Below are positions 9,006 to 34,685 of a DNA stretch of 44,021 bases, piece by piece. The notes under the pieces are model-generated. The model ran no database searches and was not told the DNA's origin. It worked only from the letters and a program-made list of their open reading frames with translations. A program made the position numbers and the translations under genes. Within the stretch, counting starts at the first letter, position 1. Each line of letters starts with the position of its first letter. Origin of the DNA: an uncultured Flavobacteriales bacterium (lineage in GTDB: Bacteria > Bacteroidota > Bacteroidia > Flavobacteriales_D > Crocinitomicaceae); contig CAJAVU010000100.1 of NCBI GenBank assembly GCA_903945495.1, positions 1-44,021 of the forward strand, read 5' to 3'.

Positions 9006-10244
9006 ATGAAAAAATTCGAAATTCCAGAATTCTATCGTTCGCCGATAATTAGTCAAGTGAAAGCGAAAAGAAAGCTTGAAGATCCGCGTAAAAAGGATTT
9101 CACGCCAAGTTTATTAGATTTTGGAACAATTCGTTTTTACATTGCACGCCATTTTGGCTTCTGTTACGGGGTTGAGAACGCTATTGAAATAGCCTATCAA
9201 GCAATTGCTGAAAATCCAGGAAAACGCATTTTTCTATTGAGTCAAATGATTCATAATCCTGCTGTCAATGAAGATTTGGTGGGGCATGGAATACAATTTA
9301 TTCAAGACACAAAAGGTCAACAATTAATTCCATGGGAATCGCTTACGCCAGAAGATATTGTTATCATTCCTGCATTTGGAACAACATTAGAAATAGAAAA
9401 AATTCTGACAGAAATTGGCGTAAATGTTTCAAAATACAATACCACATGTCCGTTTGTAGAAAAAGTATGGAATAGATCTGAAAAATTAGGATCTGATGAT
9501 CATACAATCATTATTCACGGCAAGCACAATCATGAAGAAACGCGTGCAACTTTTTCACATAGTCGTGAAAATGCGCCTGCGTTAATTCTTAAAAACATAG
9601 AAGAAGCACAATTTTTAGGTGATATTATTTTAGGAAAACGCACAATTGATTCATTTTACGAACATTTCAAAGGAAAATATTCTGAAGGATTTCATCCAGA
9701 ACAGCATTTGACTAAAATTGGAGTTGTGAATCAAACTACAATGTTGGCAACAGAAACACAAGAGATTACGGACTATTTGCGTGATGTCATGATTCAAAAA
9801 TTTGGTAATGAAAATATCAAAAATCATATTGCAGACACGCGCGACACTTTGTGTTATGCAACAAACGATAACCAATCAGCAACCAATGGATTATTGGAAA
9901 AGGAAGCCGATTTTGCAATCGTTGTCGGAGGTTATAATAGTTCAAATACGACCCATTTAGTTGAATTGTTAGAACAAAAATTCACAACTTATTTCATTAA
10001 GGACAAAGAAGAATTGTTGAGTAATCAAAAAATCAACTCATTCAATATTCATACGCATGAATTGGAATCAATGGATTTCAACTTAAATTCAATAGAACCA
10101 TTAACTATTATCGTAACATCCGGTGCTTCATGCCCTGATGCGATTGTGGATGGCGTTATTCAGAAAATATTAGACTATAAGAAAGTCTCAATCCCCGTTC
10201 AATCGGTAATTGACAAATTTCTTTCAGTAAAATCGGAAAATTAA
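9006..10244 (+). CDS. ispH: 4-hydroxy-3-methylbut-2-enyl diphosphate reductase, long form
   Basis: IspH (LytB) makes IPP and DMAPP from HMBPP in the last MEP-pathway step, using a 4Fe-4S cluster. All three cluster cysteines are visible: Cys53 (F-G-F-C-Y-G-V), Cys148 (T-T-C-P-F-V) and Cys283 (D-T-L-C-Y-A-T). The substrate-site segments H-G-K-H-N-H-E-E-T, N-Q-T-T-M-L and G-G-Y-N-S-S-N-T are present too. At 412 residues it is far longer than the usual bacterial form (about 280-320). Its inserts and motifs follow the plant/cyanobacterial type. It likely shares a transcript with the upstream DUF2079 gene. Confidence 0.95.
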   Translation: MKKFEIPEFYRSPIISQVKAKRKLEDPRKKDFTPSLLDFGTIRFYIARHFGFCYGVENAIEIAYQAIAENPGKRIFLLSQMIHNPAVNEDLVGHGIQFIQDTKGQQLIPWESLTPEDIVIIPAFGTTLEIEKILTEIGVNVSKYNTTCPFVEKVWNRSEKLGSDDHTIIIHGKHNHEETRATFSHSRENAPALILKNIEEAQFLGDIILGKRTIDSFYEHFKGKYSEGFHPEQHLTKIGVVNQTTMLATETQEITDYLRDVMIQKFGNENIKNHIADTRDTLCYATNDNQSATNGLLEKEADFAIVVGGYNSSNTTHLVELLEQKFTTYFIKDKEELLSNQKINSFNIHTHELESMDFNLNSIEPLTIIVTSGASCPDAIVDGVIQKILDYKKVSIPVQSVIDKFLSVKSEN

Positions 10245-10295: not shown

Positions 10296-11993
10296 ATGGA
10301 ACGATTTATCAATATTTTGATAATCGATGATAACGAAAAAAATCAAAAAGGCTTGAAGGAAATCCTCACAGGTGGGGGAAATAATGTCCTAATTGCTGAA
10401 TCTATTCATGATGCTTTACCTATTTTACAACAAAAAGACATTGGAATATTATTAATAAATATCGATGATCCATATTCTGGAGGACTAGAAATTTTACAAA
10501 CTTTAAAAGAAGGTTCTCAAGATCGTAACACCTATAAAATTGTTGTAACTGCCGATTCAGCTTCAGGCGCACGAATGGTTAAAGGTTTAAATGAAGGTGC
10601 TGTCGATTATATTACAACACCCTTTAATCCAAATTTGATTCGAGCAAAAATTGAAGTATTCAAATCACTATATCACAAAGATCAGCGCATTAATCAGTTG
10701 TTGAACAACATTTTCCCGACAACTGTTTTAAATGAATTAAAAGCAAATAATAAATTCTCTCCACGACGTTACAATGAAGGAGTTGTGCTTTTTACCGATT
10801 TTGTTGATTTCTCTATGAAATCTAGGGATATCAATCCAATTCACTTGCTTAAAAAATTGGAATATTATTTCACCACATTTGATGAAATAATGGACCGCTA
10901 TAAACTTGAAAAAATTAAAACCATCGGAGATGCCTATATGGCTCTTGCTGGTGTAACGGAGAATAATCCTGAAGCTTCGGTTCGCGCTTGTCTTGCAGCA
11001 ATTGAAATTCGTGATTTCATGCAAACCGAAAAAGACATTGCCGTCGCTATGAATCGTGATTTCTGGGAAGTGCGCATTGGCATTCACAAAGGACCATTGG
11101 TAGCTGGAATTATTGGAACGAGCAAAATCAGTTTTGATGTTTGGGGTGATTCTGTAAACATTGCCGCTCGCGCAGAATCAGGTTCAATTCCCGGTTACAT
11201 AACCATTACCAATAATATAGCCATTGAAGTTGAAACGTATATGAACTTGGAAGATCGTGGATCCGTTTCTATTCACAAACGAGGTGGCGATATTGAAATG
11301 TTCTATTTGAAAGATATCAAAGTTGAACATTGTTTATATGGAGAAGGCAAACTAGCGTCGACAGAATTGCGTAAAAAGTGTGGACTCTCGCCTATCGATT
11401 TTCTTCATATGCGCTTGGATATTGTGAATCGTCTGAAAGCCCTTTTGCCAGATGAAGTTGTTTACCACGATATTTCGCACACTTTAAATGTTGAAAAAGC
11501 AGCTATGCGCTTTGCTCGCTTAGAAGGATTGGACGAAGAATCAATTCAATTATTGCGCACGGCAGTTCTGTACCATGATGCCGGATTTGTTGTTGAATAT
11601 CTCCATAACGAACCTTTTGGAATCACAATGGCTGAAAATGCACTTCCAAAATTCGGTTATTCTGAAGAACACATCAGTGTCGTGCGATCAATTATTGCTT
11701 CAACCGCTTCGAATAAAAAACCCAATAATCTGCTGGAACAAATCATGTGTGATGCAGACCACGATTATTTAGGAAGGGCTGACTATTTTACGGTTGCCAA
11801 AAAATTGCGTGTCGAATTAGAAAACTATGGTCAAACAATGTCGGAAATTGAATGGATTGAATTTCAGTTAAATTATCTTGAAAAGGTACATCGATTCTAT
11901 ACTGTAACAGCAAAAAACATACGCCTTCAAGCAAAAAAAGCACATATAGAAGAGTTAAAACAACAACTCAAAGAACTTAAAAAACAACAATGA
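10296..11993 (+). CDS. Pseudo-receiver / class III adenylate cyclase / HD-domain fusion
   Basis: Three domains in 565 residues. Residues 4-125 are a response-regulator fold with the acidic pair D11-D12, but Asn55 replaces the phospho-acceptor Asp and Thr108 the conserved Lys. Residues about 155-340 are a class III cyclase with metal Asp168 and Asp212, Lys208 and Asp281 at the base-specificity positions (the adenylate pattern) and the transition-state pair Asn288/Arg292. Residues about 385-510 are an HD domain (His391 and His395 area, H427-D428, later C-D-A-D-H-D). A coiled coil ends the protein. It probably makes cAMP; the HD substrate is unknown. Its stop overlaps the next ATG by 4 nt. Confidence 0.85.
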   Translation: MERFINILIIDDNEKNQKGLKEILTGGGNNVLIAESIHDALPILQQKDIGILLINIDDPYSGGLEILQTLKEGSQDRNTYKIVVTADSASGARMVKGLNEGAVDYITTPFNPNLIRAKIEVFKSLYHKDQRINQLLNNIFPTTVLNELKANNKFSPRRYNEGVVLFTDFVDFSMKSRDINPIHLLKKLEYYFTTFDEIMDRYKLEKIKTIGDAYMALAGVTENNPEASVRACLAAIEIRDFMQTEKDIAVAMNRDFWEVRIGIHKGPLVAGIIGTSKISFDVWGDSVNIAARAESGSIPGYITITNNIAIEVETYMNLEDRGSVSIHKRGGDIEMFYLKDIKVEHCLYGEGKLASTELRKKCGLSPIDFLHMRLDIVNRLKALLPDEVVYHDISHTLNVEKAAMRFARLEGLDEESIQLLRTAVLYHDAGFVVEYLHNEPFGITMAENALPKFGYSEEHISVVRSIIASTASNKKPNNLLEQIMCDADHDYLGRADYFTVAKKLRVELENYGQTMSEIEWIEFQLNYLEKVHRFYTVTAKNIRLQAKKAHIEELKQQLKELKKQQ

Positions 11994-12538
11994 AAATTTA
12001 CACAAAAAAAGGTGATACTGGAACTACAGGGTTAATTGGTGGCACTAGAATATTAAAAAGTTCATTGCGCATTGAAGCATACGGAACAATCGATGAGCTT
12101 AATTCTTACATTGGATTGGTGCGCGATCAAGACATTCATGAGCACTACAAAAAACAATTGATAGAAATTCAAGATCGATTATTTACCATCGGTTCAAGTT
12201 TAGCAGCAGATCCTGAAAAATCAACCATGAAAATTCCAGATTTACATGCCTCAGATATTGAAGTACTTGAAAAATGGATGGATGAAATGGAAGAAGTCTT
12301 GCCTGAAATGAAGAATTTTGTGCTTCCTGGCGGACATCAGACAGTTTCTTTTTGTCATGTTGCACGTTGTGTTTGTAGAAGAGGAGAACGCATTATTGTC
12401 GATTTAAACCAACATGAATTTGTTGCAGATTTAGTTATTTCTTATATTAATCGTTTGAGTGATTATCTATTCGTTTTAAGTCGAAAAATCACCTTAGACC
12501 TTGGTGCGATTGAGCAACCTTGGCAACCAAGAATGTAA
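11990..12538 (+). CDS. PduO-type cob(I)alamin adenosyltransferase
   Basis: A 182-residue enzyme that adenosylates cob(I)alamin with ATP to make coenzyme B12. The N-terminal ATP loop T-K-K-G-D-T-G-T-T-G-L and the conserved Y-G-T-I-D-E-L-N-S, C-R-R-G-E-R and I-N-R-L-S-D-Y-L-F segments identify the PduO/MMAB type rather than CobA or EutT. It overlaps the cyclase-HD gene by ATGA, so expression is coupled. In Bacteroidetes it usually supplies methylmalonyl-CoA mutase, which is not in this window. Confidence 0.95.
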   Translation: MKIYTKKGDTGTTGLIGGTRILKSSLRIEAYGTIDELNSYIGLVRDQDIHEHYKKQLIEIQDRLFTIGSSLAADPEKSTMKIPDLHASDIEVLEKWMDEMEEVLPEMKNFVLPGGHQTVSFCHVARCVCRRGERIIVDLNQHEFVADLVISYINRLSDYLFVLSRKITLDLGAIEQPWQPRM

Positions 12539-20596: not shown

Positions 20597-23227
20597 ATGA
20601 AAAAAATATTAATCGCTTTAGCTTTTCCATTTTTCGGATTTTCTCAATTTTCAATAACAGCAACAGGCAGTTATTCGCAGGATTTTAATACTTTATTAAA
20701 CTCAGGCACAACAAACCCTTGGGTTGATAATTCGACAATTTTAAATTGTTATGCACAGCGTTCTGGAACAGGAACAAATTATGCGGGCGACAACGGAGCA
20801 GGTAATACCGGAAATCTATATTCTTACGGAACGACTGCAGCTTCAGAACGAGCATTGGGTTCTCTAGGTTCTTCAAATGCAGCTGCTGGAAATTTTGCAT
20901 ATGGAATTCAATTTCAAAATAACACAACTGGAATTGTAAATAATTTCACAGTTTCATACACAATGGAGCAATGGCGAAAAAGTGGTGTTGTTGCTGGTCA
21001 AACATTAACATTTTGGTATAAAGTAAGTGGCTCAGCAATTACGGCTTTAAATCCAAATTCAAATGCAACTTGGACACAAGTTACTGCACTTACTGCAACA
21101 ACGCCAATCAATACGGCAACTGCAGCTGCTTTGGACGGAAATTTAACAGCAAACCAAGTTGTTTTTACAAACATTGTAATTCCAGGGCTTTCACTTAATC
21201 AAGGTGAATATTTAATGTTAAAATGGGATGATCCTGATCACGCGGGTTCTGATAATGGAATATCAATCGATGATGTAACGATTTCTTGGGCTACTAGTTG
21301 TAATTCGACTAACACAATTTCTGAAATTGCTTGTGGTTCTTACACTGTTCCTTCTGGACATGAAACGTACAACGCTTCTGGAACGTATTTAGATACAATT
21401 CCAAATGCAGCGTTGTGTGATAGTATTATTACAATCAACTTAACGATTACGGCTGGTTCAATAACATATTACGCGGATACCGATAACGACGGTTTAGGTG
21501 ATCTATTAAATACTACAACTGGTTGTTCATTACCAGTTGGATTTGTTACGAACTCGAATGATTGTGATGACAACAACAATTTGATTGGTGTTGCTACTAC
21601 TGTTTTCTATTTAGATGCTGATAATGACACCTATGGTTCTGCAACAAATACAATTACGGCTTGTACACTTCCTGTTGGATATGTAACGAATAGCCTAGAT
21701 TGTAATGACAATAATAACTTAATTTATCCGGGAGCAACGGAGATTCTTGATAATGGAATCGATGAAGATTGCTCTGGTTCAGATGCTTCGGCTGCAGGAA
21801 CTCAAATTGGGTTGTACGAATTTAATGGTTCAAATGTTTGTCCCGTTCTAGCTGATACAGTTACTGCACAACCAGCAAACGCAACTTTTTCAAGCTATTC
21901 ATCAGTTGGTACATCTTGTTCTGCAACAAGTAATGTATTTAGTAATAGCGATTGGAACACAACAGCAATTATTGATTTAACAGAATACAATCAATTTGGT
22001 GTAACAACGGATGATTGTTATACATTGGATATCAATAAGATTATTTTCACACACAAAAACAGTGCAACAGGTGGAACTCCAAACTGGACGCTTCGTTCAA
22101 GTTTAGATGGATTTACAGCTGATTTGGGAACAGGAACCTCAAGTACAACCGACAAAACAGACACTATCGTTTTAGGTGCTTCTTTTGATGCTGTAACGGA
22201 TGTTCAATTTAGATTCTACATTACTAACATTGGTCAAACAGGTTCAACTTGGAGAAACGACAATGTGCGCGTAATTGCCAACTATGGATCATTAACACCT
22301 CAAACATATTATGCCGATTTAGATGCTGATACCTATGGTGATCCTGCTTCTTCAATTTCTGCATGTACACCTCCAGCATTCTATGTATTAGACAATACAG
22401 ATTGTGATGACACAGATGGCTTAGTGAATCCAGCGACAGTTTGGTTCCAAGATAATGATGGCGATTTAGTTGGAAACACAACTATTACATTAACACAATG
22501 TACAGAACCAGTTGGATATGTATTATATCCTGGAGATTGTGATGACAATAACAACTTAGTTATTTCTCCTTCTACCTATTATATGGATGCAGACAATGAT
22601 GGACATGGTTCAATGATAGGAGTTGGGTTGGTGACATGCACAAATCCAGGCGCAGGTTACGCAACTGTTGCTGATGATTGTGACGATACTCAAAACACAG
22701 TTTATCCTGGTGCACCTGAATTGTGTGATGGTTTGGACAACGATTGTATCAATGGAATTGATGATGGATTGACTTTTACAGCTTACTTCATTGATGCTGA
22801 CAACGATAATTTCGGAACAGGAAACTCTACATTGTTTTGCCAAAACCCAGGTGTTGGTTATGCTACGGTTGATGGAGACTGTGACGATGCAAACGCAAAT
22901 GCTTACCCCGGAGCAACAGAAATTCTTGACAATGGAGTTGATGAAAACTGTGATTTAACAGATAACTATGCTGGATTAAACGAATTGGTTCCTTTCCAAT
23001 TTATGGTTGTACCAAATCCTTCAAATGGTTTAGTTACAATTGAAACTTCACAATTAATCGATGGAACAATTGAATGCATTGACTTGAATGGTCGTGTTCT
23101 TTCAACTTCAACGTTAAACGCAATTTCAACAACTGTTGATTTCAGTAACTTATCGGAGGGTAACTACATTTTAAAAATCACTTCAGAAATTGGAATTCGT
23201 CAACAACGTATTTTGATTAAAAAGTAA
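20597..23227 (+). CDS. Secreted T9SS protein with six MopE-like metal-binding repeats
   Basis: An 876-residue secreted protein with a short signal peptide (to about F-G-F-S-Q). It has an N-terminal beta-rich module (about 20-235) and two repeats (about 290-396). A second beta-module follows (about 400-565), then four more repeats (about 570-795) and a type A sorting domain (V-P-N-P-S-N-G to the C-terminal K-K). Each repeat has an acidic D-x-D-x-D/N-G-type loop, a Cys and a closing D-C-D-D; several add Y-P-G-A-x-E. This matches the putative metal-binding motif of MopE-like proteins. Substrate unknown; calcium binding or adhesion is an inference. Confidence 0.88.
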   Translation: MKKILIALAFPFFGFSQFSITATGSYSQDFNTLLNSGTTNPWVDNSTILNCYAQRSGTGTNYAGDNGAGNTGNLYSYGTTAASERALGSLGSSNAAAGNFAYGIQFQNNTTGIVNNFTVSYTMEQWRKSGVVAGQTLTFWYKVSGSAITALNPNSNATWTQVTALTATTPINTATAAALDGNLTANQVVFTNIVIPGLSLNQGEYLMLKWDDPDHAGSDNGISIDDVTISWATSCNSTNTISEIACGSYTVPSGHETYNASGTYLDTIPNAALCDSIITINLTITAGSITYYADTDNDGLGDLLNTTTGCSLPVGFVTNSNDCDDNNNLIGVATTVFYLDADNDTYGSATNTITACTLPVGYVTNSLDCNDNNNLIYPGATEILDNGIDEDCSGSDASAAGTQIGLYEFNGSNVCPVLADTVTAQPANATFSSYSSVGTSCSATSNVFSNSDWNTTAIIDLTEYNQFGVTTDDCYTLDINKIIFTHKNSATGGTPNWTLRSSLDGFTADLGTGTSSTTDKTDTIVLGASFDAVTDVQFRFYITNIGQTGSTWRNDNVRVIANYGSLTPQTYYADLDADTYGDPASSISACTPPAFYVLDNTDCDDTDGLVNPATVWFQDNDGDLVGNTTITLTQCTEPVGYVLYPGDCDDNNNLVISPSTYYMDADNDGHGSMIGVGLVTCTNPGAGYATVADDCDDTQNTVYPGAPELCDGLDNDCINGIDDGLTFTAYFIDADNDNFGTGNSTLFCQNPGVGYATVDGDCDDANANAYPGATEILDNGVDENCDLTDNYAGLNELVPFQFMVVPNPSNGLVTIETSQLIDGTIECIDLNGRVLSTSTLNAISTTVDFSNLSEGNYILKITSEIGIRQQRILIKK

Positions 23228-28463: not shown

Positions 28464-31400
28464 ATGAAATCAGTTCATTTTTTTAAATTTCCAATCCTAT
28501 TATTATTCGGTCTTTTGTTGATGTCACACGCATGTGATAAGAAAAAAGGTGGCGATGAATACCTATGGGTAGATGAAGTTGTTACGAATGTCGACGATGA
28601 ATACATCAAAATAAATTTCACTGGGGATTACAAAGATCAATGGAAAAAAGTTGATTCATTGGAACAAAAAGGCTTGTATAAATCTGCCCTTGATGAAGTG
28701 ACTAGCATTTTTGAAAAGGCTAAAGCTGTTGAAAACTCTCCTGAGATTGTAAAATCAGTTCTGTATAAATTAAAATTGAGTGATTACTTACGAGAAGAAA
28801 ACATCGTAATGTCGATTACCGAAGTTGATAGTTTAGCAGCTATTTCCAACTTTCCAACCAAGCAAATCCTCTACTCTATTTCTGCTGAGGCTTATACACG
28901 TTTTTACAACCAAAACCGTTGGAAATTTATCAATCGCACCGAAGCAAAAGGAATTGTTTTGAACGATATTCGTACGTGGGATTTAACAACAATCAATCGC
29001 AAAATCAGAGAAAATCATGAATTGTCTTTGACAGAAGTTAATCGTTTGCAAAAAAGTGCATTGTCGGATTACAAAGCGATGTTGAACTATTACGGTGAAT
29101 CAAGCTTACAACGACCAACCTTGTATGATTTCATTGCGCATCGTGCCTTAAATTTCTACCAGAATACTGAACTTTCATTGCCTACGAGTGAAGAACCATT
29201 TGTAATTACAGACAATAAGTATTTTGCGACCAACAAAGAGTTCATGGAAGTTTCCAATCCAACGAACGATTCCATTTCATTGTCAAATGATTGGCAAGCA
29301 TTAAAATTATTGCGCGAATTGACTGCTTTCCATATGAATGACAAAAGTCCGGAAGCATCATTTGATTTGGAGTTAATTCGTTTGGATTTCGTTTTATCAA
29401 AATCATTGAATGACACAAAATCTGCCGCTTATGAAACAGCGTTGAAACGATTGATTGAAACATATTCCTCAAATGCTATTAGTACAGAAGCACAGCATAA
29501 ATTAGCGAGTTTGTTCACGACTCAAGGCAATGAATATTCCATTGAATCACCTGAAAACCGCTGGAAAAAGAAAGAAGCTCATGATATTTGCCAACAAGCT
29601 ATTACCGCTTTCCCGAAATCATATGGAGCTGGTTTGTGTAAAAATTTATTGGAAACAATTGAATTTAAGGATATAGATTTCACAACTGAAAAGGCTTATT
29701 CATCAACTGTTAATAAGCGCGTTTTAGTGTCTTACAAAAATGTGGATGAACTCTATTTCCGAATAGTAAAAACAGATCCTTCGTTCGACAGAACATACAA
29801 TTCCAATCGCGAAGAAGAAATGAAACGTCTATTGAAATTACCAGTTGAATACTCTTGGACATTACAATTACATGAAACAGCAGACTACCAACAACATAAA
29901 ACTGAATTCGTTTTACCTAATTTGGGACTAGGACATTACTCCTTGATTGCTTCAACAAAGGCAGACTTTGCTTTAGATACCAATTCTATTTCCTATAATA
30001 ACTTTTATGTGAGTGACTTGGCTTTCCTGTTTAATTCAAGTTCAACAGAAGCAACAAATACCATTTATGTGACAGATCGTGAAACTGGAACACCAATAAA
30101 AAATGCAACAGTTGAGGTTTTCGCACAGAAATACGATTACAACACGAGCAATTACAACTACACCAAAGAACAAACCTTAACTACGAATGACAAAGGATTG
30201 GCGGAAGTGAAAAACTCAGACAATTATTCGAATCATTTGTTTAAAATCAGTAAAGGAACAGATGTTTATTACGAAAATCAGAATTTGTATTTCTACCGTG
30301 ATGTAAGAGACGAAAAGCCCTATTCAACAACTAATTTCTTTACTGATCGACAAATATATCGCCCTGGTCAAACTGTTTATTTCAAAGGAATTCGCATTCA
30401 GCACAAAGGAAAAGAACATAAAATTGAAGTAGGAAAAACATCTGAAGTAGTTTTCCGCGATGCGAATTATCAAGAAGTCAAAAAGGTCAAATTAACCACG
30501 AATAAATACGGAACCTTCTCTGGTTCTTTCGTAATTCCAGAAACAGGAATGTCAGGACAAATGAGCATTGAAGACGCATATGGAGAAGTTTATTTTTCGG
30601 TTGAAGAATACAAACGTCCGAAATTCGAGGTCGAAATTTCACCATTAACAGGGGTTTATAAATTAAATTCTACGATTAAAGTTGAAGGGAAATCAAAAAC
30701 ATTTTCAGGTGTTGCTTTAGACGGTGCAAAAGTGAATTACAGCATCGCACGTACGACTTCAATTCCTTATTGGATGTATTATTACTATCGAATCAATGCA
30801 AATACCTCTTCCAAAGAAATTAAAAACGGAACCGTTACAACAGACGCCGATGGTAAGTTCGTGATTGACTTTGTGGCAGAAAAAGACCCAACGATTGACA
30901 CGAAGTATTTACCGTATTACAATTACACCATTTCAGTTGATGTTGTTGATATTACTGGAGAAACACATTCAGCAACGAATTACATTTCAGTGGGTGAAAC
31001 TGCTTTGCAATTGGGGATCAATAGCAGTGCAGAAATTGAAGCGCATGACGGAAACATGTTTGAAATCAGCGCAACCAATTTAAATGGTGAAGCTGTTAAT
31101 GCTGCTGGAACCATTAAAGTTCATCGTTTAGAAGACAAAAAACAGCTTTATCGCGCAAGTGCATGGGAGCGTCCGGATGTTGAAGGAATCAGTGAAACAG
31201 GATTCAGAGCGCTGTTCCCTTACGATGCCTTTAAAAAAGATGAATTAACGAAAAAAGGTGCAATTGAATCAACCGTTTTGGATCGTGCGTGGAATACAAA
31301 AACAGCTAAAACAGTTGATTTTGTTGGAATGAACTCATGGCTTCCGGGAGAATACATGATTGAAATTGCAGCAAAAGATTCCTTTGGAGTAGATGTAAAA

Positions 31401-34400
31401 GAAATTCGATATTTCTCACTTTTCGACAAAACAAGTAAGAAAGCATCCAAACGCGAAATCTTTAATGTTGCAATTATAAAACAACATTGTGAACCAGGTG
31501 AAACAGCAGAATTTCTTGTTTCTTCTGCAGATTCGAACATGACCGTGTTGTACGAATTAGAACAAGACGGAAAAATCTTGAAGCGCGAATTCATTCGGTT
31601 ATCAAACGCTCAACAACTTATTTCAATTCCAATTCTTGAAAGTCATCGAGGAAATTTAGATGTGTTCTTCACGAGTTTCAAACATGGTCGTTCGTACACT
31701 GATCGATCTACGATTTATATTCCTTTTTCAAACAAAGAATTATCTTTCGAATTTGAAACCTTCCGTGACAAGCTATTACCGGGTCAGAAAGAAGAATGGA
31801 AAATCAAAATCAAAGGTCCAAAAGGTGAAAAAGTAGCTGCCGAACTTTTAGCCGCGATGTATGATGCTTCACTGGATGAATTCGCTCAAAACTATTATAA
31901 CTTAAGTGTTTTCAATGCGAATTATTCCAATCGTTATTGGTCGAGTTACTCTAACGGTACAGCACAATCGATGGAGTTCGCAAATCACTTTAATTTAACT
32001 TCAAACCGCGCGGATTATCGCAATTACGATGAATTAAACTGGTGGAATTATTATCCTGGCAACTACTATTATTACGAAGGAGTAAATTATGGCGCAACGT
32101 ACTCATTTGAAACAATGGATAGGGAGGAGAATTTTGCTCCGATTGGCCAAAAGAATGAACTGACTTTTACCTCTAATAAAGTTACGCTGTCCTCAACCAA
32201 TTCCGTTTCACAAGGATTTTATGCCAACGCTGATACGATGCGAAAAGATGACCAAAAAGAAAGCGATAAAAATGAAGGTCGTTTAAAACCATTGGAAGAA
32301 AAATCACAAGGTATAGAATTTGCCAATCTCGGAGCTGTAAAAGCACGCACCAACTTGAATGAAACAGCGTTCTTCTTACCACAATTGTCGACCAATGACA
32401 AAGGAGAAGTATTTGTGAAATTCACACTTCCAGAATCATTGACAACATGGTCGTTCATTGGATTAGCGCACACGAAAGATTTAAAAACAGGTTCATTCCA
32501 AAAAGAAGTTGTTGCTCAAAAAGAATTGATGATTACGCCAAATCCACCACGTTTCTTGCGTGAAGGTGATAAAGTGAGATTCACAGCAAAAGTTTCAAGT
32601 TTAGCAGGTAAAGATTTAAAAGGAACAGCTACCTTGCTTCTTTTTGATGCGCAAACAAATCAGCCAATTGATACTGCTTTCAAATTGTCGAATGCTGAAC
32701 GAAGTTTCGACTTAAAAACTGGGCAAAGCAATGTGTTAACATGGGAATTAAACGTACCAGTTGGAATTAGTGCAATCAATTACCGTGTTGTTGCAAAAGC
32801 TGAAAGTCACACAGATGCGGAAGAAAATACCTTACCTATTCTATCAAACCGACTATTAGTAACAGAATCATTGCCATTACCATCAAAAGGAATTGGAACG
32901 AAAGAATTTACCTTTAAAAAATTGGTTGAAAGTGGTTCTTCAACAAGCTTAGATCACCATTCTCTGACATTAGAATACACATCGAATCCAGCGTGGTATG
33001 CAATTCAAGCAATGCCGTACATGATGGAATATCCATATGAATGCGCTGAACAAACATTTACACGCTTCTATTCAAATGCTTTGGCAACAAACATCATGAA
33101 CTCAAGTCCACTAATCAAACAAGTGATTGACAGCTGGAAAAATTCAACGCCTGATGCATTTCTTTCGAACCTTGAGAAAAATCAAGAATTGAAAGCCTTG
33201 TTGTTAAAAGAAACGCCTTGGTTATTGGAAGGTCAAGATGAAACGGCAAGAAAGAAAAAAATCGCCTTGTTGTTCGACTTAGCAAAAATGGACAAAGAAC
33301 TAGATCGCGCAGTGGCTAAATTGGAAAAAATGCAAGTTGCAAATGGCGCTTGGCCTTGGTTCCCTGGAATGCCAGAAAATCGTTACATCACACAACACAT
33401 TATCACTGGAATGGGACATTTAGATCATTTGAACGTGAAAGATGTGCGTGAAAACGAGGCCGTTTGGGACATGGTTTCTAAAGGCGTAAACTATTTGGAT
33501 CATGAAATTTTAGATGATTACAACTACATCGTTGAGCATGATACAAATTATTTGAAAAACAAACATATTAGTGAGGATCACATTCAATACTTGTATGCAC
33601 GTAGCTTCTTCACGGATCTAGCAATGGATGGAATAACAAAAAAAGCATTCGACTATTTCCAACAACAAGCAACAAAGTATTGGACAGATTTCTCGATTTA
33701 CTCTGAAGGAATGATTGCGTTACAAGCGAAACGATTCTCAGACGCTCCTGTTTCAATCGATATAATGAAGTCTATCAAGGAACGCGCAATCAACGACGAC
33801 GAAATGGGCATGTATTGGAAAGACAATGTTCCTGGTTACTACTGGTATCAAGCGCCAATTGAAACGCAAGCCTTATTAATCGAAGCGTTTGATGAAGTTA
33901 CGAAGGACCAAGTTTCCGTTGAAAACATGAAAGTTTGGTTGTTAAAACAAAAGCAAACGACAGATTGGAAAACAACCAAAGCAACGGCTGAAGCTTGTTA
34001 TGCTTTGTTATTGAAAGGAACAGAAATCTTAACGAATACTGAACAAGTTCAAATAAAAGTGAATGGTAAAACGATTGATCCAAAAGCACTTGGTTCAACA
34101 GTTGAAGCTGGTACTGGTTATTTCAAAACATCTTGGCCAGAGGATAAAATCACACCAGAAATGGGGAACATTGAAGTGATTCGTAAAACGGAAGGCGTAA
34201 GTTGGGGAGCAATGTATTGGCAGTATTTTGAAGATATGGACAAAATCACATCTGCTGAAACACCATTGAAATTGAAAAAACAATTGTTCAAAGTGGAGAA
34301 TTCTGCAACAGGTCAAACAATGAACTTGATTACTGATCAAACGAGTTTAAAAGCTGGTGATAAAGTGCGCGTTCGCATCGAATTGCGTAGCGATCGTAAC

Positions 34401-34685
34401 ATGGAATATGTTCACATGAAAGACATGCGCGCTGCTGGTTTGGAACCGTTAAATGTTTTCACGCAATACAAGTATCAAGATGGTTTGGGCTATTACGAAA
34501 GTACGGCTGATGCGGCAACAAATTTCTTCTTCGATTACTTACCGAAAGGAACCTACGTGTTTGAATACGACTTGATAGTGAACTTGGCTGGTGATTTCGC
34601 GAATGGAATTACCACGATTCAATGTATGTATGCACCGGAGTTTACGAGTCATTCTGAGGGAGTGAGGTTGAAGATTGCGGAGTGA
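28464..34685 (+). CDS. Bacterial alpha-2-macroglobulin family protein
   Basis: At 2073 residues this is the largest gene in the window. A hydrophobic leader ends S-H-A-C-D, a loose lipobox, so it is likely a lipoprotein. A helical N-terminal region (about 45-440) is followed by macroglobulin MG-type beta domains (MG2-like, with Y-R-P-G-Q-T-V-Y-F-K-G). The A2M domain (L-P-E-S-L-T-T-W) comes next, then the thioester motif C-A-E-Q (Cys1527-Gln1530) within Y-P-Y-E-C-A-E-Q and a helical thioester domain (W-P-W-F-P-G). Bacterial A2Ms trap invading proteases covalently in the periplasm. The usual partner pbpC is not adjacent. Confidence 0.93.
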   Translation: MKSVHFFKFPILLLFGLLLMSHACDKKKGGDEYLWVDEVVTNVDDEYIKINFTGDYKDQWKKVDSLEQKGLYKSALDEVTSIFEKAKAVENSPEIVKSVLYKLKLSDYLREENIVMSITEVDSLAAISNFPTKQILYSISAEAYTRFYNQNRWKFINRTEAKGIVLNDIRTWDLTTINRKIRENHELSLTEVNRLQKSALSDYKAMLNYYGESSLQRPTLYDFIAHRALNFYQNTELSLPTSEEPFVITDNKYFATNKEFMEVSNPTNDSISLSNDWQALKLLRELTAFHMNDKSPEASFDLELIRLDFVLSKSLNDTKSAAYETALKRLIETYSSNAISTEAQHKLASLFTTQGNEYSIESPENRWKKKEAHDICQQAITAFPKSYGAGLCKNLLETIEFKDIDFTTEKAYSSTVNKRVLVSYKNVDELYFRIVKTDPSFDRTYNSNREEEMKRLLKLPVEYSWTLQLHETADYQQHKTEFVLPNLGLGHYSLIASTKADFALDTNSISYNNFYVSDLAFLFNSSSTEATNTIYVTDRETGTPIKNATVEVFAQKYDYNTSNYNYTKEQTLTTNDKGLAEVKNSDNYSNHLFKISKGTDVYYENQNLYFYRDVRDEKPYSTTNFFTDRQIYRPGQTVYFKGIRIQHKGKEHKIEVGKTSEVVFRDANYQEVKKVKLTTNKYGTFSGSFVIPETGMSGQMSIEDAYGEVYFSVEEYKRPKFEVEISPLTGVYKLNSTIKVEGKSKTFSGVALDGAKVNYSIARTTSIPYWMYYYYRINANTSSKEIKNGTVTTDADGKFVIDFVAEKDPTIDTKYLPYYNYTISVDVVDITGETHSATNYISVGETALQLGINSSAEIEAHDGNMFEISATNLNGEAVNAAGTIKVHRLEDKKQLYRASAWERPDVEGISETGFRALFPYDAFKKDELTKKGAIESTVLDRAWNTKTAKTVDFVGMNSWLPGEYMIEIAAKDSFGVDVKEIRYFSLFDKTSKKASKREIFNVAIIKQHCEPGETAEFLVSSADSNMTVLYELEQDGKILKREFIRLSNAQQLISIPILESHRGNLDVFFTSFKHGRSYTDRSTIYIPFSNKELSFEFETFRDKLLPGQKEEWKIKIKGPKGEKVAAELLAAMYDASLDEFAQNYYNLSVFNANYSNRYWSSYSNGTAQSMEFANHFNLTSNRADYRNYDELNWWNYYPGNYYYYEGVNYGATYSFETMDREENFAPIGQKNELTFTSNKVTLSSTNSVSQGFYANADTMRKDDQKESDKNEGRLKPLEEKSQGIEFANLGAVKARTNLNETAFFLPQLSTNDKGEVFVKFTLPESLTTWSFIGLAHTKDLKTGSFQKEVVAQKELMITPNPPRFLREGDKVRFTAKVSSLAGKDLKGTATLLLFDAQTNQPIDTAFKLSNAERSFDLKTGQSNVLTWELNVPVGISAINYRVVAKAESHTDAEENTLPILSNRLLVTESLPLPSKGIGTKEFTFKKLVESGSSTSLDHHSLTLEYTSNPAWYAIQAMPYMMEYPYECAEQTFTRFYSNALATNIMNSSPLIKQVIDSWKNSTPDAFLSNLEKNQELKALLLKETPWLLEGQDETARKKKIALLFDLAKMDKELDRAVAKLEKMQVANGAWPWFPGMPENRYITQHIITGMGHLDHLNVKDVRENEAVWDMVSKGVNYLDHEILDDYNYIVEHDTNYLKNKHISEDHIQYLYARSFFTDLAMDGITKKAFDYFQQQATKYWTDFSIYSEGMIALQAKRFSDAPVSIDIMKSIKERAINDDEMGMYWKDNVPGYYWYQAPIETQALLIEAFDEVTKDQVSVENMKVWLLKQKQTTDWKTTKATAEACYALLLKGTEILTNTEQVQIKVNGKTIDPKALGSTVEAGTGYFKTSWPEDKITPEMGNIEVIRKTEGVSWGAMYWQYFEDMDKITSAETPLKLKKQLFKVENSATGQTMNLITDQTSLKAGDKVRVRIELRSDRNMEYVHMKDMRAAGLEPLNVFTQYKYQDGLGYYESTADAATNFFFDYLPKGTYVFEYDLIVNLAGDFANGITTIQCMYAPEFTSHSEGVRLKIAE

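Follow-up and report, generated by a model that had tools for sequence, protein, structure and literature searches.

The window, a 44,021-nucleotide stretch of DNA from an uncultured Flavobacteriales bacterium, encodes a protein in which an aspartate-less pseudo-receiver stands in front of two intact enzyme sites, a class III cyclase and an HD domain, and comparison with its relatives confirmed that this arrangement is conserved as such. The evidence is about evenly balanced on the proposal that the HD domain is a cAMP phosphodiesterase, in which case one homodimeric protein would both make and break cAMP, with the pseudo-receiver as its input.

Gene, domain layout, and genomic context

The open reading frame (ORF) starts with ATG, and both its start and its stop were verified. 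In Pfam searches the 565-aa product matched Response_reg (PF00072) at aa 7-119 (E 2.1e-15; 57.3 bits against a curated cut-off of 30.2), Guanylate_cyc (PF00211) at aa 157-339 (E 1.4e-38, above the curated cut-off), and HD (PF01966) at aa 393-489 (E 2.7e-6; 28.1 bits against a curated cut-off of 22). An AlphaFold model of the full protein (mean pLDDT 88.3, pTM 0.83) contained a long helix (aa 112-137) running from the last helix of the receiver to the cyclase, followed by a helical HD domain. Positions of all features are listed in Table 1.

Table 1. Features of the receiver-cyclase-HD gene and its neighbors (positions in the window)
Feature	Position	Strand	Basis
Upstream ispH (LytB)	9006..10244	+	Homologue ends within 300 bp in 37/66 relatives with enough flank
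Complete gene (565 aa: receiver, class III cyclase, HD)	10296..11993	+	ORF list, Pfam
Pseudo-receiver domain, aa 7-119	10314..10652	+	PF00072; receiver-like alternating strands/helices in AlphaFold model
Asn55 codon, phospho-acceptor Asp position, end of beta3	10458..10460	+	Alignment, model
Thr108 codon, conserved Lys position	10617..10619	+	Alignment
Linker helices, aa 112-156, receiver alpha5 to cyclase	10629..10763	+	Model, alignment
Class III adenylate cyclase, aa 157-339	10764..11312	+	PF00211, conservation
HD/phosphodiesterase-like domain, aa 369-564	11400..11987	+	Pfam, models, structure searches
YHxxxH motif (Tyr390, His391, His395)	11463..11480	+	Invariant, 71/71
Pfam HD core	11472-11762	+	PF01966
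His427-Asp428, HD pair	11574..11579	+	Invariant, 71/71
Glu439	11610..11612	+	Unchanged in 71/71 relatives and in each of 72 wider-family HD ORFs
DADHD motif (Asp486, Asp488, Asp490), last metal ligand region	11751..11765	+	Alignment
Gln524, three residues ahead of aromatic Tyr527; may correspond to the class I phosphodiesterase glutamine	11865..11867	+	Motif only
Downstream cobalamin adenosyltransferase	11990..12538	+	Start overlaps stop (ATGA)

The main alignment comprised 71 rows, the window protein and 70 of 79 loci (L065, a fragment, and the HD-only L072-L079 were left out), and a deeper set of 50 rows, partly overlapping it, reached down to 42% identity. The nearest relative of the 565-aa protein, from Crocinitomicaceae, was 85% identical. 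Mean pairwise identity in the family alignment was 49% for the receiver, 60% for the HD domain, and 64% for the cyclase; the best conserved stretch of the protein was aa 123-156 (67%), and from aa 129 on the linker aligned with the segment preceding the second cyclase domain of AC9. Purifying selection acts on all three domains, as judged from median dN/dS values of 0.027 (receiver), 0.047 (cyclase), and 0.056 (HD) over 6 non-overlapping pairs among the 16 in the usable dS range. In three pairs (L017/L019, L003/L028, and L002/L009), synonymous divergence of the receiver was lower than that of the cyclase and HD parts of the same gene (for L017/L019, 0.31 versus 0.82 and 1.97), which hints at mosaic genes formed by recombination.

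Within the bacterial family, 97 of 120 genomes gave a match at E 1e-100; 84 of these hold the receiver form (including incomplete copies in G408, G388, and G326) and 13 only a cyclase-HD paralogue. Stand-alone HD relatives of ∼195 to 200 aa (L072-L079) were found in other Flavobacteriales, and one of them (L073), read by eye, presumably lies between PorP/SprF-like and MltG-like genes. A 54% identical copy within the Fluviicola-like clade (L051), with ispH nearby, is deposited as CP034120.1 under the title Glaciecola amylolytica; this species is a gammaproteobacterium, and mislabelling or mixing of the record is possible.

Among the 67 relatives whose flank was long enough, 41 have a cobalamin adenosyltransferase gene within 100 bp, with the ATGA overlap in 20 of them. 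The gene is non-adjacent in Brumimicrobium, Fluviicola-like, and some other loci, and we therefore read the arrangement as inherited gene order; a functional tie to ispH or the adenosyltransferase was rejected, since the order is common but not universal. The window cyclase also matched the PADLOC PycC model (38.7 bits). A Pycsar defense locus was nevertheless dismissed, because the neighbors are ispH and the cobalamin adenosyltransferase and no PycTM or PycTIR effector, nor any other Pycsar effector, was found among the ten window ORFs scanned. Elsewhere in the window, an 876-aa protein (20597-23227) carries three stretches of MopE Cu-binding motifs and a Por secretion tail, and an ORF of 2073 aa spans 28464-34685.

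A receiver without its phospho-acceptor

In the model, strand beta3 spans aa 49-55, and Asn55 is its last residue, the place at which receivers hold the acceptor Asp; the family alignment agreed. A sequence-only reading of this DNA had proposed the same, taking its bearing from the conserved Pro. Asn55 does lie four residues ahead of Pro59 here, but this Pro is kept in just 26 of 69 rows and is a poor landmark, so that the placement of Asn55 rests on the alignment and on beta3 instead. The second proposed substitution was likewise seen: where receivers read KPF, the window protein reads TPF at Thr108. The remaining pocket residues D11, D12, and T85 are present. Asp57, which the earlier reading had named as the residue whose presence in the acceptor pocket would overturn it, is not placed there by the model; it lies already in the loop past beta3, at a variable position (Asp in 43 of 69 rows), and was rejected as an acceptor.

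Across the main alignment, position 55 carried N in 53, D in 12, and S in 4 of the 69 rows that could be scored (2 had gaps). Position 108 was K in 23, T in 13, Y in 11, and I in 10 of 71 rows, with other residues in the rest. The first acidic position (11) was D in 55, E in 12, and H in 1 of 68 rows, while the second (12) varied freely. In the deeper set, N occupied position 55 in 40 rows, S in 6, D in 3, and P in 1. All five phosphorylation residues occurred together in 4 of 68 scorable rows (L045, L047, L049, and L050, a single Fluviicola-like clade at 54-55% identity) and in none of the 50 deeper rows. When Asp55 and Lys108 alone were required, the count was 7 of 68. Close orthologues with this pair were to have counted against the earlier reading; in same-genus genomes (10 read of the 11 listed beside the window's own), the pair was absent throughout, position 55 being N in 10/10 and position 108 K in 0/10.

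Over the loci, codon 55 was AAT in 29 and AAC in 23 cases, versus GAT in 11 and GAC in 1, Asn and Asp being one base apart. On a quick tree built from the alignment columns of the cyclase and the HD domain, 22 of whose 68 inner branches are open, the acceptor column changed at least 10 times and the K108/not-K state at least 5 times. These patterns suggest that Asn is the usual state at position 55 and that Asp appears and vanishes repeatedly, which argues against dependence on phosphorylation, although the four relatives with the full set could still have it. Neither an orphan sequence nor a decaying receiver was accepted as an explanation, because most relatives, including those as distant as 42% identity, have N or S at position 55, and the dN/dS of the receiver is low. 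The 12 Asp55 rows, the four complete sets, and the single-base step between the two codons would all suit a receiver that keeps its Asp chemistry, with Asp57 or a back-mutated Asp55 being phosphorylated inefficiently and driving an ordinary two-component output. Yet 8 of the 12 Asp55 rows miss another catalytic residue, the deeper rows hold no full set, and position 57 lies beyond the end of beta3, and we consider such a receiver highly improbable.

By the definition given in a review (PMC12632262), a receiver missing any of DD, D, T, and K is a pseudo-receiver, and one missing the D is aspartate-less (ALR). With its PF00072 match, N55, and T108, the window receiver falls into the aspartate-less subset, which supports the earlier claim that its canonical phosphorylation is unlikely; it would be controlled by something besides a histidine kinase, although the analysis turned up neither a signal nor a partner.

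The receiver has conserved residues of its own, kept in at least 95% of rows (R3, N6, G26, G28, N29, G50, Y80, G97, G101, D104, P109, K118, and K123, among others). Some of these fall in the alpha1-beta2 region, in which the CikA pseudo-receiver binds quinones (PMC12632262). Such conservation speaks against the domain being a signal-free element for dimerization or stability, although it remains compatible with a structural role. The drifting phosphorylation residues would fit that role, and no ligand pocket was identified; on balance we think a purely structural receiver decidedly unlikely.

An adenylate-type cyclase with a complete site

Both halves of the earlier claim about the enzymes, a complete adenylate-type cyclase site and a retained HD metal motif, were borne out. 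In the cyclase, we take Asp168 and Asp212 to bind metal and Lys208 and Asp281 to contact adenine, with Asn288 and Arg292 presumably also belonging to the catalytic set; the first five are invariant in 71/71 rows and R292 is present in 70/71. These six residues, together with ten HD residues, were unchanged in all 50 deeper rows. With the PF00211 match, the metal Asp pair, the adenine-type Lys/Asp, and the Asn and Arg, the domain classifies as a class III adenylate cyclase, and cAMP synthesis is predicted. The closest solved sequences were AC9, AC8, AC5, and one bacterial cyclase, and Foldseek matched the model of the entire protein best to a bacterial adenylyl cyclase domain (5o5l, E 2.8e-19). 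Since metal and base residues are all held in one chain, a homodimer would contain two complete sites.

The genome that holds the window (3.64 Mb, completeness 99.99%) encodes four class III cyclases and eight proteins that match cNMP_binding and are possible cAMP readers. One cyclase (L082, 343 aa) is a receiver-cyclase with DD, D, T, and K intact and no HD domain; a canonical receiver-cyclase thus coexists with the pseudo-receiver one in the same genome. Another (L083) carries TPRs. A further one (L081, G000:C21:250038-251342) is a second cyclase-HD protein with Reg_prop and Y_Y_Y (propeller-cyclase-HD), whose cyclase-HD end is 41% identical to that of the window protein; its HD domain was detected by comparison within the HD family, while the Pfam HD model gave no match. 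Paralogues of this type recur in the family, with open frames of 1298-1367 aa.

The HD domain and its nearest kin

The metal-site residues H391, H395, H427, D428, E439, D486, and D488 were present in 71/71 relatives, and the wider family of 72 HD ORFs kept them without exception. The H, HD, D metal pattern and PF01966 place the domain in the HD superfamily. PF01966 was the sole HD model matched; the HD-GYP and RSH-type HD models and PDEase_I (PF00233) gave no match to the window protein at E 1, and membership in these three families was rejected on that ground. Three relatives with a PycTM domain after the HD reached PDEase_I at E 0.0018-0.0071, below the cut-off.

The methods disagreed on the nearest kin of the domain. 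In Foldseek searches with an HD-only model (mean pLDDT 93.7), YpgQ ranked first (E 3.5e-4), 2pq7 third, and the HD-GYP protein DvhD 14th (E 0.025), and cyclic-mononucleotide phosphodiesterases appeared from rank 20 on. A profile of the HD family run against PDB sequences likewise favored YedJ (2.9e-9), 2pq7 (4.1e-9), and YpgQ (4.5e-4), the best phosphodiesterases being PDE8A (0.0049) and then SmPDE4A (0.0079); the HD-GYP protein 4mcw matched positions 8-69 of the 203-position profile (E 3.2e-4). VIA-align, run on 1000 Foldseek-ranked chains, pointed to phosphodiesterases instead: the best match was PDE10A (4dff; Z 18.4, rmsd 2.6, 193 residues aligned), RhoPDE (5vyd) followed closely in score (Z 17.9, rmsd 2.6, 197 residues aligned), and 48 of the 50 listed entries are titled cyclic-nucleotide phosphodiesterase, with 5vp0 and 4ys7 sharing the residue ranges of PDE2A and PDE10A; as many chains are repeat entries of few phosphodiesterases, the 50 rows should not be counted as independent results. 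On the basis of the model, the HD domain shares the fold of class I cyclic-nucleotide phosphodiesterases, though a shared fold proves no function.

Pocket residues gave a mixed picture. Eight strictly conserved pocket residues are listed for class I phosphodiesterases (PMC5617230). The HD domain has the two His at a spacing of 4, the next H, the D, and the later D, and Glu439 is a plausible sixth; two class I His are absent, one at HD-Asp+3 (here F/Y431) and one three residues after the Glu. In SmPDE4A, the invariant glutamine Q626 is followed at +3 by the aromatic clamp F629 (PMC10095301). Q524 and Y/F527 are present in 70/70 scorable rows, a likeness to SmPDE4A by motif and not by superposition; the phosphodiesterase matches listed for two HD profiles against PDB sequences end at profile position 90 or earlier, short of Gln524.

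YpgQ/YedJ-like HD proteins are nucleotide pyrophosphohydrolases. As their members are the closest PDB sequences (YedJ, 2pq7) and include the best Foldseek E-value (YpgQ), the window HD domain could be a pyrophosphohydrolase or pyrophosphatase whose substrate is ATP or the PPi released by the cyclase, leaving cAMP untouched. The full-domain VIA-align comparison, in contrast, prefers cyclic-nucleotide phosphodiesterases, and repeated association with cyclases and PycTM would be unexpected for a housekeeping NTP hydrolase; we regard this activity as unlikely.

HD relatives are linked to cyclases and to PycTM

The HD family was present in 103 of 296 Bacteroidota genomes (E 1e-10); PDEase_I, the only phosphodiesterase class covered by this survey, was found above the Pfam cut-off in 0/296 and below it in 5/296. 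The wider family comprised 72 ORFs, 71 of them distinct, drawn from 70 loci plus L081 and the window protein. All ten scanned HD ORFs of 391-457 aa were HD-PycTM proteins. Among ten further ones, two were cyclase-HD (L107, L118), two HD-YitT (L113, L117), two TPR-HD (L114, L116), and four HD alone. Fusion to a class III cyclase thus occurs in four distinct proteins: those of the window, L081, L107, and L118 (GAF-cyclase-HD).

The residue at the Gln524 position was Q in all cyclase-fused HD domains (5 rows, 4 distinct), N in 25, T in 3, S in 2, G in 1, and Q in 1 of 32 PycTM-fused ones, and Q in 15 of 35 other HD ORFs. Within ∼1.5 kb flanks, a cyclase ORF was found at 5 of 14 Gln-type loci whose HD is not fused to a cyclase versus 0 of 13 loci with other residues, and at 0 of 10 HD-PycTM loci (L125-L128 and L130-L135). 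The cyclase lies on the strand of the HD gene in L108, L111, and L117 and on the opposite strand in L109 and L114. Read along a single strand, the genes run cyclase, HD, YitT in L108; receiver-cyclase, YitT, HD in L111 (longer in L234); and receiver-cyclase, HD-YitT in L117. In L230, a TPR-cyclase lies upstream of an HD gene. Both the acceptor Asp and the Lys are retained in the receivers at L117, L234, and L114, but the cyclases of these three carry Thr at position 281. The L111 and L117 cyclases, with Thr in place of Asp281, therefore represent another subtype and not simply a split form of the window protein; the association of HD with cyclases does not hinge on such a form. L117, L234, and L114 share a domain set with the window protein, not necessarily descent.

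Of the 19 genomes with a Gln-type HD, 18 had a class III cyclase (for 3 of the 19 this is trivial, the HD being cyclase-fused), whereas among 50 genomes with only non-Gln HD a cyclase was found in 34 and none was matched in 16; overall, 74 of 103 genomes with HD had a class III cyclase versus 87 of 193 without, all these counts ignoring kinship. The YitT-family membrane protein was fused to (L113, L117) or adjoined (L108, L109, L111, L119, L120, L122, L123) Gln-type HD genes. At equal flanks, one or the other applied to 9 of 14 Gln-type loci versus 0 of 13 others, and the protein might act as a membrane partner in nucleotide turnover.

Proposed function

We favor, if on an even balance, a soluble homodimer in which the cyclase would make cAMP and the HD domain remove it. 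The aspartate-less pseudo-receiver would serve as the input, responding to a ligand, a partner protein, or dimerization and not to Asp phosphorylation. As receiver alpha5 runs into the pre-cyclase helix, such an input would tip the protein toward synthesis or toward breakdown of cAMP. Homodimerization, hydrolysis of 3',5'-cAMP by the HD domain, the two activities being live together, and switching by the receiver are what we infer from the domains. A phosphodiesterase-like HD is suggested by the full-domain VIA-align result, and a tie to cyclic nucleotides by the recurrent fusion to, or location beside, cyclases and the fusion to PycTM; the proposal is weakened by the YpgQ/YedJ-type neighbors in sequence and Foldseek searches, the unmatched PDEase_I model, and the two absent pocket His. 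Of the HD substrates put forward in the sequence-only reading (cAMP, cyclic dinucleotides, and (p)ppGpp), the evidence leans toward a cyclic mononucleotide. HD-type cAMP phosphodiesterases exist in Myxococcus.

The HD domain could also be a sensor whose metal site binds a nucleotide, cAMP or a different one, and which feeds back on the cyclase. A binding role would suit the relatives that are fused to the PycTM receptor/effector, but the metal-pocket residues are as strictly kept, in 71/71 relatives and 72 HD ORFs, as catalysis would demand, and we see little likelihood of a sensor without enzymatic activity.

If, as we favor, the domain is a phosphodiesterase, it would provide a cAMP off-switch in Bacteroidota, where class I enzymes are missing above the Pfam cut-off from the surveyed genomes, and one linked to Pycsar-type effectors. 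A bolder extension, offered tentatively and with more doubt than confidence, is that the HD domain founds an unrecognized minimal family of bacterial 3',5'-cyclic-nucleotide phosphodiesterases that is widespread in Bacteroidota. Within it, the residue at the glutamine position would reveal the partner and possibly the base as well. Gln would mark cyclase-linked, purine (cAMP) enzymes, and Asn/Ser/Thr PycTM-linked ones, possibly for pyrimidine cNMPs. The window protein would then be a self-limiting cAMP unit composed of an HD enzyme, a cyclase, and a phosphorylation-free receiver.

Comparison with known systems

A literature search covering titles and abstract starts, with few subscription journals, listed no paper on a protein of this receiver-cyclase-HD type and none on the HD portion of the PycTM fusions. 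The receiver resembles the pseudo-receivers of PMC12632262 in its PF00072 fold and in lacking the acceptor Asp and the Lys. The available part of that review describes DD2 as more variable than DD1 and the Pro at D+4 as often lost, and the window family is alike in both respects. It differs from the examples in that part in its output, a class III cyclase with an HD domain, the cyclases there being diguanylate cyclases. How bacterial pseudo-receivers switch is still described as a mystery (PMC12632262). The present family offers dozens of natural variants in which receiver chemistry is lost and two enzymatic read-outs are intact, so that the effect of a ligand or partner on a pseudo-receiver could be read directly as cAMP made or lost.

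L082-type receiver-adenylate cyclases share the receiver directly ahead of a class III cyclase but differ in their intact DD, D, T, and K and in having no HD domain. HD-PycTM proteins (L125-L128, L130-L135), which are common in Bacteroidota, carry a homologue of the HD domain in which the metal residues are identical; they differ in carrying a Pycsar effector domain after the HD, versus a cyclase before it in the window protein, and in the N/T/S/G at the Gln524 position in 31 of 32 PycTM-fused ORFs. In known Pycsar systems, PycTM is activated by cyclic pyrimidine nucleotides (PMC11224242). YpgQ, YedJ, and 2pq7, the nearest solved structures by sequence and Foldseek, show the H..H, HD, D pattern but rank below phosphodiesterases in VIA-align, and YedJ, 2pq7, 3djb, and 3b57 have Ala or Gly before the first His, where the window protein has Tyr.

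A parallel in proposed function is CAPE of Marchantia, which combines adenylyl cyclase and phosphodiesterase in one chain (PMC5159850; PMC8115329). Both proteins join a class III cyclase to a phosphodiesterase or putative phosphodiesterase domain, and the spacing of His199 and His203, whose replacement (H199Q and H203Q) abolishes the PDE activity of CAPE (PMC5159850), equals that of His391 and His395. CAPE differs in its reverse domain order, its predicted transmembrane segments, and its class I phosphodiesterase domain, whereas the window protein has a short bacterial HD domain and a receiver, a domain that the available parts of these papers do not mention for CAPE. The window protein would most likely work like the plant CAPE, outside the class I phosphodiesterases.
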